DNA of 64,000 bases from Rhizobium sp. NXC14 (lineage in GTDB: Bacteria; Pseudomonadota; Alphaproteobacteria; Rhizobiales; Rhizobiaceae). The stretch is from contig NZ_CP021030.1 of assembly GCF_002117485.1 (NCBI RefSeq), forward strand, positions 1,057,001 through 1,121,000, given 5' to 3'. Numbering within the stretch: position 1 is the first letter of the stretch; every line of letters starts with the position of its first letter. Made by a program: the position numbers and the translations under genes. The notes beneath the pieces are model-generated. The model saw nothing but the letters and a program-made list of their open reading frames with translations. It was not told the origin of the DNA and ran no database searches. Shown one piece after another: positions 15,264-41,963 of this stretch.

Positions 15264-15294
15264 TGGCCCCCTCATCCGCCTGCCGGCACCTTCT
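15264..15294. repeat. Left part of a RIME, interrupted by IS110 type A
   Basis: GGCCCCCTCATCCGCCTGCC followed by GGCACCTTCT, then the IS begins. The continuation CCCCGAGGGGAGAAG is found at 16441 directly after the element. Beyond about 16465 the rest of the RIME is not recognisable. Confidence 0.75.
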
Positions 15295-15321
15295 TGGATA
15301 AGAAAAATGTAGGATATTGAT

Positions 15322-15470
15322 GCTTGCCGGGCGGGTGGCCGCCCGCCCGGCAGCTGGTTGTCGGATCGTCACCTTCTTAGCCGTTTTGGGCTGTGGGGAG
15401 CAGGATCGCAACCGGCTCTTCATCTGGCCCGTGTGGTTGCAGGAACCTTGGGGTTCGTATCCAAGACAGG
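15322..15470 (+). ncRNA. Putative bridge RNA of IS110 type A copy 1
   Basis: Same structure as in copy 2: a GC-rich 5' hairpin (15322-15354), a target-binding loop with guides CACCTTCT (15370-15377) and GGGGAG (15395-15400), and a donor-binding loop with guides TGGTTGC (15434-15440) and ATCCAAG (15459-15465). All four segments are intact although the recombinase gene of this copy is broken. Confidence 0.6.
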
Positions 15471-15480
15471 GACGACGAAG

Positions 15481-16429
15481 ATGACCGATAATAGCATGAT
15501 TTGTGCCGGAATCGATGTCGGCAAAAGCCATCTCGACATTGCCCTCCATCCCGGTAAGGCAAGGCTGAGGGTCACGTACGACACCGCTGGCCTGAAGGCG
15601 CTTGACGCCTTTCTTCGAGAGCATGACGTCAGCCGCATCGGCTTCGAAGCCTCCGGCGGCTGTGAATGGCGGCTGCTGGCGCATCTGCGGGCCGGCAAGC
15701 GGCCGGGCGCGTCTGCAGCCGGCGCAATTGCGCTTCTTTGCCAAGAGCCGGCTCAAGCGGGCCAAGAACGATCGGCTCGATGCCGTGCTGATTGCGCTCT
15801 TCACGGCAAGTCTCGAGCAGTTGCCGGCGCTGCCGGACGCACGCTTCGACAAGTTGGCCGCCGAACTGACCTATCTGGAACAGATCGAGCAGCAGATCGC
15901 GCTGGTCAAGACCTTTGCCGAGACCGCCTTGTCGGAGGCGATCAAACGCCGCCACCTGCGCGAGGTCGCCCGCCTCGAAACCTGCCGCAAGGCCCATCTG
16001 CTGCGGCTCGAAAAGACGGTTCGCGACGATTGCGACCTGGCGCAACGGCTCGATCTGCTGATCTCCATCAAGGGGATCGGGCTGCGCAGCGCCCTGTGCT
16101 TGATCATTCGGCTGCCCGAACTCGGCCATGCCAGCCGCGCCGAGATCGCCGCCCTTGCCGGCGTCGCACCCTATGACGACGATAGCGGAAAGTATCATGG
16201 CAGACGCCGCATCCAGGGTGGTCGCGAACGCCTGCGAAAGAGCCTATTCATGTGCGCATTCACGGCAACCCGGCACAATCCGGATCTCGCCGCTTTCTAC
16301 ACGCGCTTGCGTCAGAACGGAAAGGAGCACCTGTGCGCCGTTATAGCCGTCGCCCGAAAACTCATCGTTCTCGCCAACACAATCCTCTTTCGAAAGACCG
16401 AATGGACGCCACAACACCGCAAGAATTAA
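15481..16429 (+). pseudogene. IS110 type A recombinase, frameshifted
   Basis: Starts ATG 15481 (MTDNSMICAGIDVGKSHLD). Near 15705 the sequence CGGCCGGGCGCGTC lacks two bases relative to the intact copy (CGGCCGGCGGCGCGTC), shifting the frame; the rest (LQPAQLRFFAKSR... to WTPQHRKN) is open in the second frame to 16429. One conserved Tyr is changed to Cys (GGCEWR instead of GGYEWR). The RuvC-like DEDD part and the C-terminal Ser domain are split between frames, so the protein is probably inactive, but the element could be moved by the intact copy. Confidence 0.85.
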
Positions 16430-16523
16430 ACATGGTTGCTCCCCGAGGGGAGAAGGGGGCGTGCCGCGAGCTCCGTTCCTTGCCCACGTGAATCGGGCCG
16501 CCAGAGCGCCGCCAATCATCCGG

Positions 16524-34857: not shown

Positions 34858-34990
34858 CCTCACCCTAACCCTCTCCCCGTTCTGACGGGGAGAGGGGACG
34901 TGCCCTGCGAGAGGTTGGCGAGGGACGGAGAGGTCGCGGCCCGGTCCCTTCGCCCCGCGAGCGGGGAGAAGGTGGCGGCAGCCGGATGAG
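34858..34990. repeat. RIME interrupted at its right end by IS110 type B copy 1
   Basis: CCCCTCACCCTAACCCTCTC on the left, two inner hairpins (CCCCGTTCTGACGGGG, CCCCGCGAGCGGGG), then GGCAGCCGGATGAG where the IS begins. The last bases, GGGC, lie after the element at 36147. Confidence 0.8.
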
Positions 34991-35005
34991 AATCTGTGTT
35001 GGCTG

Positions 35006-35944
35006 TCAAGGCGGATTTGGTGTCCAGAGACGGTTCTGAGATAGAAGGCAGTTTGCCAGCACGAGCAGCTTTCGCATGATGGCGACAAGGATGACCTTGG
35101 CTGGTTTTCCTGTGGCTTTGAGCGTGTCTGCGAAACGAGCAAGCGCGGGATTGTAGCGACATGCCGACAAGGCGGCCATGTAGAGCGCGCGCCGGGGTGC
35201 GGGCCTGCCGGCGCGGATGGAACGACGTCCGGTTCGTGCACCGCTGTCGTTCGCGATTGGGGCAAGCCCTGCCAGCATGGCGGCCTGTTTGCCCGAACAT
35301 GTCCCCAACTCGTCCATGCCGGCCATCAAGGCCAGGGCCGTGACGCGGCCGATGCCGGGAATGGAGGTGAGGATCTCGGCCTTGCGGCAGAGCTGCGGAT
35401 CCTCGCCGACACATCGTTCGATCTCTTTGTCGAGACGTTCGACATGCTGTTCCAGCCGTCGCACAAGGCGGTTGAGTTCGCCGCGCAGAAAGGCAGTGGT
35501 GGCAGCCTTGCTGCGATTCTGCAGGGCGGTGATGTCGCATTTGGCTGCCGATCGTGCATTGACCAGCTCCTGCAAGGCCTCGATGTGAGGACTTGGCGGC
35601 GTGTCGGCCGGCGGGCGCAGGCTCTCGGCCAAGAGCGCCAGGAAACGGGCATCTAGCCGATCGGTCTTGGCGAGATAGCCGCAGGCGCGGGCAAACATGC
35701 GCGCGCGCAACGGATCGACCACGGCGACGGCAAAGCCATCGAGCCAAAGCGAGTGATGGGCGGGGCGATGGAACTTACCGGTTGCCTCCATCACGATGCT
35801 TTTGGGCCGATGCCTGGCCAGCAGCCGTTTCAGCTGGTCGATGCCGGTCTTGTCATTGCTAAACCGCCGGCTTTCGCCCAGCGGATGCAGATGAACATCA
35901 AGCCACTCTTTACTCACGTCCACACCGGCATAAACTACCGGCAT
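35006..35944 (-). CDS. IS110 type B recombinase (copy 1)
   Basis: 312 residues from ATG 35944 (MPVVYAGVDVSKEWLDVHL). N-terminal RuvC-like DEDD part: D in AGVDVSK, E in IVMEATGKFH, DxxD in KTDRLDARF. C-terminal Tnp20 domain: SIPGIGRVTALALMAG, then LAGLAPIANDSGARTGRR with the catalytic Ser. A longer start (35998) would lie inside the donor-binding loop of the bridge RNA, so it is rejected. Catalyses bridge-RNA-guided excision and insertion according to what is known of IS110 relatives. Confidence 0.9.
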   Translation of the reverse strand: MPVVYAGVDVSKEWLDVHLHPLGESRRFSNDKTGIDQLKRLLARHRPKSIVMEATGKFHRPAHHSLWLDGFAVAVVDPLRARMFARACGYLAKTDRLDARFLALLAESLRPPADTPPSPHIEALQELVNARSAAKCDITALQNRSKAATTAFLRGELNRLVRRLEQHVERLDKEIERCVGEDPQLCRKAEILTSIPGIGRVTALALMAGMDELGTCSGKQAAMLAGLAPIANDSGARTGRRSIRAGRPAPRRALYMAALSACRYNPALARFADTLKATGKPAKVILVAIMRKLLVLANCLLSQNRLWTPNPP

Positions 35945-35966
35945 CGCGTCTTCTTGGAACGAAACC

Positions 35967-36109
35967 TTGCCTTGCATGCGGGACTTGCTCCCCATCATCT
36001 GTTCAGGACAAACGCGAGGACGGCCGGACCAATCTCATCCCCGGTTCAAGCCAAGGGGCCTGCGGTCCCGGCCGTCCGCACTCCGGCGGATGGCCATCCG
36101 CCGGAGTGC
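35967..36109 (-). ncRNA. Putative bridge RNA of IS110 type B copy 1
   Basis: Same layout as copy 2: perfect 5' hairpin at 36078-36109, a target-binding loop with guides GGCCCCT (36054-36060) and GGATGAG (36034-36040), and a donor-binding loop with guides ACAGAT (35997-36002) and CATGCAAG (35971-35978), all read on the minus strand. The target here, GCCC-CT-CATCC, differs slightly from copy 2 on the left half. Confidence 0.6.
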
Positions 36110-36309
36110 GCACCGATCATCAATCAGCGCGAATTGAACATGCAAGGGGCAGGCATCGGCGCGTCCCGCCTGCTGCCAAACGCGCGAACATCACCGCAGC
36201 CATGGCAATGGCGCGTTTCGCCTGTCGTTCGGCGCATATGAGCTTGTCCTGCCGGTGCACTCACTTCACCATGAAGGCAATTTCAGCTCCGGACAGAGAC
36301 AGGCAGGCA

Positions 36310-39285: not shown

Positions 39286-39402
39286 GACCTATCGACGGCT
39301 CGTCGGGCAACGACGGCTCCTGTCATTGATGTCGTGCCGCGAGGCCCCCTCATCCGACCCTTCGGGCCACCTTCTTGGATGAAAAAAATGTAGGATATTG
39401 AT

Positions 39403-39551
39403 GCTTGCCGGGCGGGTGGCCGCCCGCCCGGCAGCTGGTTGTCGGATCGTCACCTTCTTAGCCGTTTTGGGCTGTGGGGAGCAGGATCGCAACCGGCTCT
39501 TCATCTGGCCCGTGTGGTTGCAGGAACCTTGGGGTTCGTATCCAAGACAGG
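39403..39551 (+). ncRNA. Putative bridge RNA of IS110 type A copy 2
   Basis: 5' hairpin GCTTGCCGGGCGGG / CCGCCCGCCCGGCAGC (39403-39435). Target-binding loop closed by GGTTG / CAACC, with guides CACCTTCT (39451-39458) and GGGGAG (39476-39481) around the inner stem AGCC / GGCT. Donor-binding loop with TGGTTGC (39515-39521) and ATCCAAG (39540-39546) around the inner stem GAACC / GGTTC. Left-target guide equals the target top strand CACCTTCT; right-target guide is the complement of CTCCCC; donor guides match the element's right end (ATGGTTG-CT) and left end (CT-TGGAT). Layout as in IS621. Confidence 0.65.
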
Positions 39552-39561
39552 GACGACGAAG

Positions 39562-40512
39562 ATGACCGATAATAGCATGATTTGTGCCGGAATCGATGTC
39601 GGCAAAAGCCATCTCGACATTGCCCTCCATCCCGGTAAGGCAAGGCTGAGGGTCACGTACGACACCGCTGGCCTGAAGGCGCTTGACGCCTTTCTTCGAG
39701 AGCATGACGTCAGCCGCATCGGCTTCGAAGCCTCCGGCGGCTATGAATGGCGGCTGCTGGCGCATCTGCGGGCCGGCAAGCGGCCGGCGGCGCGTCTGCA
39801 GCCGGCGCAGTTGCGCTTCTTTGCCAAGAGCCGGCTCAAGCGGGCCAAGAACGATCGGCTCGATGCCGTGCTGATTGCGCTGTTCACGGCAAGTCTCGAG
39901 CAGTTGCCGGCGCTGCCGGACGCACGCTTCGACAAGTTGGCCGCCGAACTGACCTATCTGGAACAGATCGAGCAGCAGATCGCGCTGGTCAAGACCTTTG
40001 CCGAGACCGCCTTGTCGGAGGCGATCAAACGCCGCCACCTGCGCGAGGTCGCCCGCCTCGAAACCTGCCGCAAGGCCCATCTGCTGCGGCTCGAAAAGAC
40101 GGTTCGCGACGATTGCGACTTGGCGCAACGGCTCGATCTGCTGATCTCCATCAAGGGGATCGGGCTGCGCAGCGCCCTGTGCTTGATCATTCGGCTGCCC
40201 GAACTCGGCCATGCCAGCCGCGCCGAGATCGCCGCCCTTGCCGGCGTCGCACCCTATGACGACGATAGCGGAAAATATCACGGCAGACGCCGCATCCCGG
40301 GTGGTCGCGAACGCCTGCGAAAGAGCCTGTTCATGTGCGCATTCACGGCAACCCGGCACAATCCGGATCTCGCCGCTTTCTACACGCGCTTGCGTCAGAG
40401 CGGAAAGGAGCACCTGCGCGCCGTTATAGCCGTCGCCCGAAAACTCATCGTTCTCGCCAACACAATCCTCTTTCGAAAGACCGAATGGACGCCCCAATAC
40501 CGGAAAAATTGA
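39562..40512 (+). CDS. IS110 type A recombinase (intact copy)
   Basis: 316 residues from ATG 39562 (MTDNSMICAGIDVGKSHLD). DEDD part: D in AGIDVGK, E in IGFEASGGYEW, DxxD in KNDRLDAVL. C-terminal domain: SIKGIGLRSALCLIIRL and AALAGVAPYDDDSGKYHGRR with the candidate catalytic Ser. The start lies just after the bridge-RNA donor loop, with GGGACGACGAAG before the ATG. Shares only family-level similarity with the type B recombinase, so the two elements are separate lineages. Confidence 0.92.
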   Translation: MTDNSMICAGIDVGKSHLDIALHPGKARLRVTYDTAGLKALDAFLREHDVSRIGFEASGGYEWRLLAHLRAGKRPAARLQPAQLRFFAKSRLKRAKNDRLDAVLIALFTASLEQLPALPDARFDKLAAELTYLEQIEQQIALVKTFAETALSEAIKRRHLREVARLETCRKAHLLRLEKTVRDDCDLAQRLDLLISIKGIGLRSALCLIIRLPELGHASRAEIAALAGVAPYDDDSGKYHGRRRIPGGRERLRKSLFMCAFTATRHNPDLAAFYTRLRQSGKEHLRAVIAVARKLIVLANTILFRKTEWTPQYRKN

Positions 40513-40688
40513 ACATGGTTGCTCCCCGCTGGGGAGAAGAGGGAGAGTGGCGCTTCGCCATCCACCCCATTGGATGAAGTGCCTACAAGCAGGCGGGTTC
40601 GTTTGCCAGTGTCGGAGCGACTTGCTTTCCCTTCTCCCCAGCGGGGAGAAGGTGGCCCGAAGGGTCGGATGAGAATCTGTGTTGGCTG

Positions 40689-41627
40689 TCAAGGCGGATT
40701 TGGTGTCCAGAGACGGTTCTGAGATAGAAGGCAGTTTGCCAGCACGAGCAGCTTTCGCATGATGGCGACAAGGATGACCTTGGCTGGTTTTCCTGTGGCT
40801 TTGAGCGTGTCTGCGAAACGAGCAAGCGCGGGATTGTAGCGACATGCCGACAAGGCGGCCATGTAGAGCGCGCGCCGGGGTGTGGGCCTGCCGGCGCGGA
40901 TGGAACGACGTCCGGTTCGTGCACCGCTGTCGTTCGCGATTGGGGCAAGCCCTGCCAGCATGGCGGCCTGTTTGCCCGAACATGTCCCCAACCCGTCCAT
41001 GCCGGCCATCAAGGCCAGGGCCGTGACGCGGCCGATGCCGGGAATGGAGGTGAGGATCTCGGCCTTGCGGCAGAGCTGCGGATCCTCGCCGACACATCGT
41101 TCGATCTCTTTGTCGAGACGTTCGACATGCTGCTCCAGCCGTCGCACAAGGCGGTTGAGTTCGCCGCGCAGAAAGGCAGTGGTGGCAGCCTTGCTGCGAT
41201 TCTGCAGGGCGGTGATGTCGCATTTGGCTGCCGATCGTGCATTGACCAGCTCCTGCAAGGCCTCGATGTGAGGACTTGGCGGCGTGTCGGCCGGCGGGCG
41301 CAGGCTCTCGGCCAAGAGCGCCAGGAAACGGGCATCTAGCCGATCGGTCTTGGCGAGATAGCCGCAGGCGCGGGCAAACATGCGCGCGCGCAACGGATCG
41401 ACCACGGCGACGGCAAAGCCATCGAGCCAAAGCGAGTGATGGGCGGGGCGATGGAACTTACCGGTTGCCTCCATCACGATGCTTTTGGGCCGATGCCCGG
41501 CCAGCAGCCGTTTCAGCTGGTCGATGCCGGTCTTGTCATTGCTAAACCGCCGGCTTTCGCCCAGCGGATGCAGATGAACATCAAGCCACTCTTTACTCAC
41601 GTCCACACCGGCATAAACTACCGGCAT
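40689..41627 (-). CDS. IS110 type B recombinase (copy 2)
   Basis: 312 residues, differing from copy 1 at only three positions (LLAGHRPK for LLARHRPK, GMDGLGTC for GMDELGTC, RPTPRR for RPAPRR). All catalytic motifs listed for copy 1 are present, so both copies may be active. Start at 41627 (MPVVYAGVDVSKEW) for the same reason: upstream Met codons fall in the donor-binding loop of the bridge RNA. Confidence 0.9.
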   Translation of the reverse strand: MPVVYAGVDVSKEWLDVHLHPLGESRRFSNDKTGIDQLKRLLAGHRPKSIVMEATGKFHRPAHHSLWLDGFAVAVVDPLRARMFARACGYLAKTDRLDARFLALLAESLRPPADTPPSPHIEALQELVNARSAAKCDITALQNRSKAATTAFLRGELNRLVRRLEQHVERLDKEIERCVGEDPQLCRKAEILTSIPGIGRVTALALMAGMDGLGTCSGKQAAMLAGLAPIANDSGARTGRRSIRAGRPTPRRALYMAALSACRYNPALARFADTLKATGKPAKVILVAIMRKLLVLANCLLSQNRLWTPNPP

Positions 41628-41649
41628 CGCGTCTTCTTGGAACGAAACC

Positions 41650-41792
41650 TTGCCTTGCATGCGGGACTTGCTCCCCATCATCTGTTCAGGACAAACGCGA
41701 GGACGGCCGGACCAATCTCATCCCCGGTTCAAGCCAAGGGGCCTGCGGTCCCGGCCGTCCGCACTCCGGCGGATGGCCATCCGCCGGAGTGC
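41650..41792 (-). ncRNA. Putative bridge RNA of IS110 type B copy 2
   Basis: Read on the minus strand: perfect 16-bp hairpin GCACTCCGGCGGATGG / CCATCCGCCGGAGTGC (41761-41792); target-binding loop closed by GGACGGCCG / CGGCCGTCC (41701-41760) with guides GGCCCCT (41737-41743) and GGATGAG (41717-41723); donor-binding loop with ACAGAT (41680-41685) and CATGCAAG (41654-41661) around a GGG / CCC stem. Target on the element strand: GGCCCC-CT-CATCC. Donor ends: ACAGATT-CT and CT-TGCATG. Confidence 0.62.
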
Positions 41793-41963
41793 GCACCGAT
41801 CATCAATCAGCGCGAATTGAACATGCAAGGGGGCCTCGCGGCACAACCAAAATTCATCATTGGCTCGGTGACTCCGTGCCCGACCCCGTCCCCGTCCCTG
41901 AAACGATCCGCAACTGCCCCTCGTGCGGATGCTTTGAGGCTAGACTTGTAGCCCCAAACGAAA

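Follow-up and report, generated by a model that had tools for sequence, protein, structure and literature searches.

The window analysed here, a stretch of 64,000 nucleotides from Rhizobium sp. NXC14 (NZ_CP021030.1, positions 1,057,001 to 1,121,000 of the forward strand), harbors an insertion sequence of the IS110 group, hereafter type A, that splits a palindromic repeat. Its extent had been placed at 39374..40523 by an earlier, sequence-only reading; these coordinates are correct, and a CT core lies at each edge. The element, the repeat that it interrupts and the guide-bearing RNA that it appears to carry comprise the following features, in window coordinates:

39349..39375, +: left portion of the split palindromic repeat, from sequence, repeat copies and empty sites
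39374..39375, +: left CT core, the junction of repeat and element, from the flanks of eight copies and empty sites
39376..40521, +: type A element (IS110), present in eight full copies, with 1,146 bp separating the CT cores
39394..39399, +: -10-like hexamer GATATT, 17 bp from a TTGCTT formed at the joint of the ends
39405..39561, +: modelled part of the putative bridge RNA, from a covariance model and pair counts, the ends being model limits only
39406..39433, +: 5' hairpin of the putative bridge RNA, helix 1 of the pair count and present in the fold
39450..39458, +: left target guide TCACCTTCT, fitting the left half of the repeat plus the core
39476..39481, +: right target guide GGGGAG, pairing with CTCCCC
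39514..39521, +: left donor guide GTGGTTGC, fitting the right end ATGGTTG-C save for one base
39540..39546, +: right donor guide ATCCAAG, pairing with CT-TGGAT
39562..40512, +: type A recombinase, 316 residues, DEDD plus serine (PF01548, PF02371), with an assumed start codon
40522..40523, +: right CT core, from copy flanks and empty sites
40522..40541, +: right portion of the split palindromic repeat, from sequence and hairpin analysis

Type A has 186 noncoding nucleotides before the assumed ATG and 9 after the stop codon, the long left end and short right end expected of IS110/IS621-type elements; its noncoding region lies upstream of the gene and not downstream, as it would in an IS1111 element. 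The recombinases of type A and of a second element in the window, type B, both score above the cut-off for PF01548 and PF02371, combining a RuvC-like DEDD domain with a serine-bearing Transposase_20 domain. Residues D12, E56, D98, D101 and S236, which we take to be catalytic, are invariant across the six recombinase proteins compared, and the relatives of the type A protein in the PDB are IS621 and ISCro4.

Within its own genome (6.69 Mb, four contigs), type A is present as eight full copies and one left fragment of 292 bp, the seven other full copies being 98-99% identical in DNA to the one described above. All eight carry a CT core at both ends and lie at one and the same position of the palindromic repeat, with the left flank reading CACCTT-CT in six copies and CATCTT-CT in two, and the right flank CT-CCCCG in all eight. 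The flanks of the other copies had been named beforehand as an observation on which the sequence-only reading would stand or fall, and the agreement with CA[C/T]CTT-CT and CT-CCCCG is complete (8/8). The repeat, known here only as an abundant palindromic one and presumably the RIME of that reading, is represented by 65 occurrences of CACCTTCTCCCC in the genome, against a single occurrence of the reversed control pattern, and its variants among the type A copies are GGGCCACC, CCGGCACC, CAGGCATC, CCGGCATC and CCGCCACC. All eight copies lie in the palindrome arm matched by the left guide, and none in the other arm, which reads CCCTTCT, CTCTTCT, CGCTTCT or TCCCTTCG.

For two of the eight copies (L004 and L005), the left and right flanks were fused at a single CT, and the product was used to search 60 genomes from the genus. 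For L004, six matching loci were read, four of which contain CACCTTCTCCCC with at most one change (intact in L189 and L192, one base changed in L188 and L190; L194 and L196 are altered by more than one base). For L005, four loci were read, three of them with CACCTTCTCCCC and at most one change (intact in L207, one base missing or changed in L204 and L205; L203 is disrupted). Altogether seven of the ten loci are altered, four by one base and three by more, and the empty sites of both copies carry a single CT. At both places tested the repeat is unbroken in relatives, from which it follows that the element splits the repeat on insertion and ends up with a CT at either edge.

A further type A copy lies in the same window at 15293-16459 (+), with a gene that stops after 231 residues. 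The 292-bp fragment (L009/L169, C1:2511491-2511782) is located in the same kind of repeat and has lost the first bases of the left end; it retains the whole RNA and no full recombinase. The genome also encodes other recombinases of IS110/IS1111 type on contigs C2 and C4 (L031-L035).

The four guide strings proposed in the sequence-only reading occur at the implied places (CACCTTCT at 39451-39458, GGGGAG at 39476-39481, TGGTTGC at 39515-39521 and ATCCAAG at 39540-39546), and the left end folds as described there, with a hairpin on the 5' side followed by two more stem-loops that contain internal loops. The target guides fit both halves of the repeat, CACCTT-CT-CCCC, and the donor guides fit the element's own ends: once the copies have fixed the ends, matching the four guides in order gives a score of 31.5, a value reached by none of 2,000 RNA shuffles (mean 18.7, maximum 26.3). 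When possible ends were scanned blindly, the same solution ranked first and a neighbouring register scored 30.5. When the guides are allowed to occupy any place in the RNA, the type A target score is attained by 2 of 2,000 randomly chosen window positions, and a score of 31.5 is attained, over both strands, by 49 of the 127,920 window positions taken as target; eight of these 49 are repeat copies, 26 fall within the window's two type A RNAs and 15 are of neither kind. Guide matching in one element taken alone is only moderately convincing, and the case is carried by the copies and by related elements.

An alignment of 19 elements yielded a 5' hairpin, a target loop and a donor loop, to which a small hairpin between the two target guides was added (94.1% of cells paired). 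In 27 of the 42 pairs both sides have changed, whereas slid structures reach at most 12, and none of 500 shuffles attains the observed value on any of five covariation measures. The covariance model recovers all eight type A copies and the fragment in their own genome, and of 297 genomes sampled from the family it gives matches in 12, that genome among them; type B is not matched by the type A model, and no Rfam family matches the type A RNA above its cut-off (best E 0.49). One genome outside the training set (G257; its near relative L050 was inside) contains five copies with L050-type guides, and their left flanks read CCGGCAC-CT as predicted in 5/5, the right flanks lying outside the loci.

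Joining the right end to the left end creates a -35-like TTGCTT that spans the joint, 17 bp from the -10-like hexamer. Over 36 distinct joints, the hexamer at exactly 17 bp has a mean of 3.42 of 6 matches to TATAAT, with at least four matches in 23 of them, while any other spacing from 8 to 31 gives a mean of at most 2.17. The -35 TTG, present at the joint, is absent in 39/39 integrated left ends, and a promoter-like -35 thus arises only where the ends of the element are joined. A promoter at the joined ends of IS621 and five relatives is reported by Durrant et al. 2024 (PMC11208160).

The correspondence between guides and targets extends across relatives. A total of 56 elements was aligned (53 of 80 loci together with type A, L050 and L053), of which 10 had no end motif and 6 failed the end rule (L086, L126, L141, L149, L151 and L153); 40 passed, 36 of them with distinct guides. 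The ends of the relatives were taken at CTTG on the left and GTTG on the right, chosen blind to the target, except for four set by hand after the targets had been seen (the left ends of L118, L120 and L122 and the right core of L050). Two other automatic end-finders misplaced the ends and were dropped. Blind four-guide scans recovered types A and B but, because wrong ends score 24-30 in many relatives, they were left out as evidence. Across the 36 elements, type A included, the mean guide score is 13.53 on the own target versus 8.26 on permuted targets, a difference (z 14.9, with kinship ignored) matched by none of 20,000 permutations of the 36 distinct guide pairs. The z value is 13.1 without the four hand-set ends, and 12.2 (n 23) when near-identical rows are also thinned. 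Exact runs of at least six bases occur in 25/36 left and 24/36 right guides, and the own target is the best of all in 21/36 elements. Half-sites fail to fit in L095, L120 and L123 on the left and in L090 on the right, whether through decay, a misplaced guide window or a true mismatch. Since the donor motifs set the ends of the relatives, the fit of donor guides to the element's own ends is independent only for types A and B; it is evident in type A and weaker in type B.

Several relatives are directed to sequences that are repeated in their hosts, although the hosts in which these were counted were picked rather than drawn at random. The L053 target, CCACCT-CT-CCCCGC, occurs nine times in its host genome, and that of L087 from Rhodopseudomonas, CAC-CT-CAGGATGA, 139 times, with no occurrence of the control in either case; the L087 target is absent from two other genomes checked, whose elements have other targets. 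L103 of Mesorhizobium has the target ACCC-CT-CATCCG, and its repeat ACCCCTCATCCGNC is found 148 times (control 0) and is absent from three other genomes checked, whose elements likewise have other targets. The A. canadense copies L110-L117 share the right flank CT-CCCCCC (8/8), with CCAAC-CT on the left in seven and CCATC-CT in one. In L122 and L128, from Azospirillum and Roseomonas, the right guide fits 10/10 target bases and the targets have no strong hairpin. L082, closely related to type A, occupies the palindrome's opposite arm, where its own left guide has two mismatches.

The copies, the empty sites, covariation, the permutation analysis, the donor guides and the promoter-like joint support the earlier proposal of an IS621-like bridge RNA programmed for the palindromic repeat, and we consider it highly probable that type A, an insertion sequence of the IS110 group, is autonomous and has a bridge RNA aimed at this repeat. 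In the corresponding mechanism, excision would bring the two ends of the element together at a single CT core, and the joint would build a promoter, identified by sequence evidence only, from which the left end would be transcribed as bridge RNA. In the first loop of this RNA, TCACCTTCT and GGGGAG would recognise CACCTT-CT-CCCC, and in the second loop the donor guides would recognise the joined ends of the element itself. The DEDD/serine recombinase would then exchange strands at CT, as is known for IS621, and type A would thereby spread among palindromic intergenic repeats. For type A, it is the transcription of the bridge RNA, the circle and catalysis that we infer.

The alternative that survives best accepts this reading of type A and regards the element as dead, its guides and ends being the fossil of past transposition. 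Two of the eight full copies do have a broken recombinase gene (L006 stops after 28 residues and L008 after 231), and the 292-bp fragment has been left behind, but six of the eight keep the whole 316-residue frame, with proteins 99-100% and DNA 98-99% identical, and we deem extinction unlikely. It is far less plausible that the recombinase reads the palindrome itself, as hairpin, cruciform or sequence, and that the left end, though RNA-like, serves as a regulatory leader and matches the target only incidentally. A strong hairpin overlaps 15 of 36 reconstructed targets versus 14 of 180 control stretches, and palindromes are thus favoured as targets; however, in 21 of the 36 the insertion point lacks a strong hairpin, and yet in many of these the guides fit (L122 and L128 among them), all eight type A copies pick the guide-fitting arm over a near-identical other arm, and the guides change along with the targets among relatives. 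That the shared flanks arose by homologous recombination or duplication of repeat-bearing segments rather than by repeated targeted insertion is the least credible explanation, for although copies and repeats are near-identical and copies of types A and B lie near each other at two places, the flanks past the repeat differ among the eight copies, the repeat variants differ, and relatives have an empty site at both places tested.

A neighbouring element, which the sequence-only reading of type A leaves unmentioned, may exploit the same repeat by means of a guide RNA of its own. This second element, type B, comprises the following features:

40674..41827, -: type B element (IS110), entering the neighbouring repeat at its outer edge, with cores at 41828-41829 and 40672-40673
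40689..41627, -: type B recombinase, 312 residues (PF01548, PF02371), 33% identical to that of type A
41737..41744, -: candidate left target guide AGGCCCCT
41717..41723, -: candidate right target guide GGATGAG, pairing with CTCATCC
41680..41685, -: candidate left donor guide ACAGAT, a weak match to the right end ACACAGATT
41654..41661, -: candidate right donor guide CATGCAAG, pairing with CTTGCATG

All five type B copies have GCCC-CT as left flank and CT-CATCC as right flank; the latter runs on as the repeat in four of them, and in L038, the fifth, it continues with CTCATCCTAACCC and another hairpin. The guide score of type B is reached by 1 of 1,000 shuffles, a weaker result than for type A, the left donor guide being poor, and the candidate RNA is predicted to aim at the outer edge of the repeat that type A enters. 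L220, a 64% relative of type B, is also at the edge of the repeat, with a right guide that fits and a left guide with one mismatch, and at C1:2159 elements of types A and B occupy one same repeat, about 20 bases apart. A further type B copy lies in the window at about 34990-36145 (-).

On the protein tree, two sets of elements aim at the inside of the repeat, type A with its kin (L053, L081-L083) and the pair L050/L218, and they are separated by elements with other targets. Those that aim at the repeat edge (L102-L104, L118 and type B) fall on three branches, again with other targets between. A formal count on the tree gives one change per target label, with moderate support for the deep branches, and fails to prove several origins because only labelled rows were counted. 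L084, sister to the type A group, has nearly kept the left guide, and its changed right guide, ATGGGAG, fits its own flank CTCCCAT. We lean towards the view that an alphaproteobacterial IS110 clade keeps its donor loop and repeatedly re-aims its target halves among the common intergenic repeats of its various hosts, distant lineages having met on the same repeat; the routes would be shifts of a few bases along the repeat, a change of one half-site (as in L084) or a move to another repeat. Two distant elements would then divide one palindrome in one genome, and repeats, if the view holds, would be safe and renewable landing sites that drive the evolution of guides.

Type A resembles the E. coli element IS621, whose bridge RNA and structures (8wt6 etc.) have been described (Durrant et al. 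2024, PMC11208160), in its putative left-end noncoding RNA with a 5' hairpin and two loops, its CT core and its related recombinase, as well as in having guides of 8-9 and 4-7 nt, a REP target and, at the joined ends, a predicted sigma-70 promoter. It differs from IS621 in its guides, its host repeat and its distant protein, and is known here from sequence alone. Covariation of IS110 bridge RNAs over 5,511 target pairs has also been published (PMC11208160). Among IS1111 elements, ISEc11 and ISXne4 possess seekRNAs, with natural re-aiming via changed guides (Siddiquee et al. 2024, PMC11187229); in these the RNA is usually downstream of the gene, whereas type A is of the IS110 type, with the RNA upstream.

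The reported association between rhizobial IS110 elements and repeats predates the discovery of bridge RNAs: in 2006, Tobes and Pareja (PMC1525189) found all four copies of ISRm19, an IS110 element of Sinorhizobium meliloti, in REPs. L050 and L218 are probably ISRm19, as two positions on pSymB agree with the two given in that study. The L218 protein is 45% identical to that of type A, and its guides CCGGCACC and GGAGAAG aim three bases further upstream in the repeat. The same study describes ISPpu9 and ISPpu10 of Pseudomonas putida, two dissimilar IS110 elements that use a common REP in the same genome (PMC1525189); these enter the very same REP position, whereas types A and B use separate positions within a single repeat. 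One small-RNA survey of S. meliloti (PMC2873474) notes an antisense RNA at TRm19, which has no bearing on a sense bridge RNA. Among titles and the opening lines of abstracts we found none linking rhizobial repeats with bridge RNAs, which does not prove absence, and no study of type A was found in the literature searched, subscription literature being mostly outside it.

The mechanism of type A is already known from relatives; what is new is that guides re-aimed in nature here form a clear series, and one repeat common to two elements with predicted guide RNAs is also notable. These elements offer a base-by-base reason why rhizobial IS110 elements sit in repeats and provide a set of natural bridge RNAs with differing target guides and rather constant donor loops. 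Such a series, with its register shifts and half-site changes, is useful for studying guide change and for choosing alphaproteobacterial programmable recombinases to test.

Plasmid records matching type A belong almost exclusively to Sinorhizobium (87/88), and among the matches listed 39/40 cover only positions 26-186. One of the Sinorhizobium loci, L049, is a related bridge RNA remnant without a recombinase in which the left guide CACCTTC is still readable. A mobile RNA-only element in Sinorhizobium was considered and set aside: four of the seven fetched regions holding this remnant (L049, L221-L226) lie just downstream of groL, and the other three have no annotation there. Given the groL position in those four, the Sinorhizobium RNA is most simply one old remnant that has been carried along.
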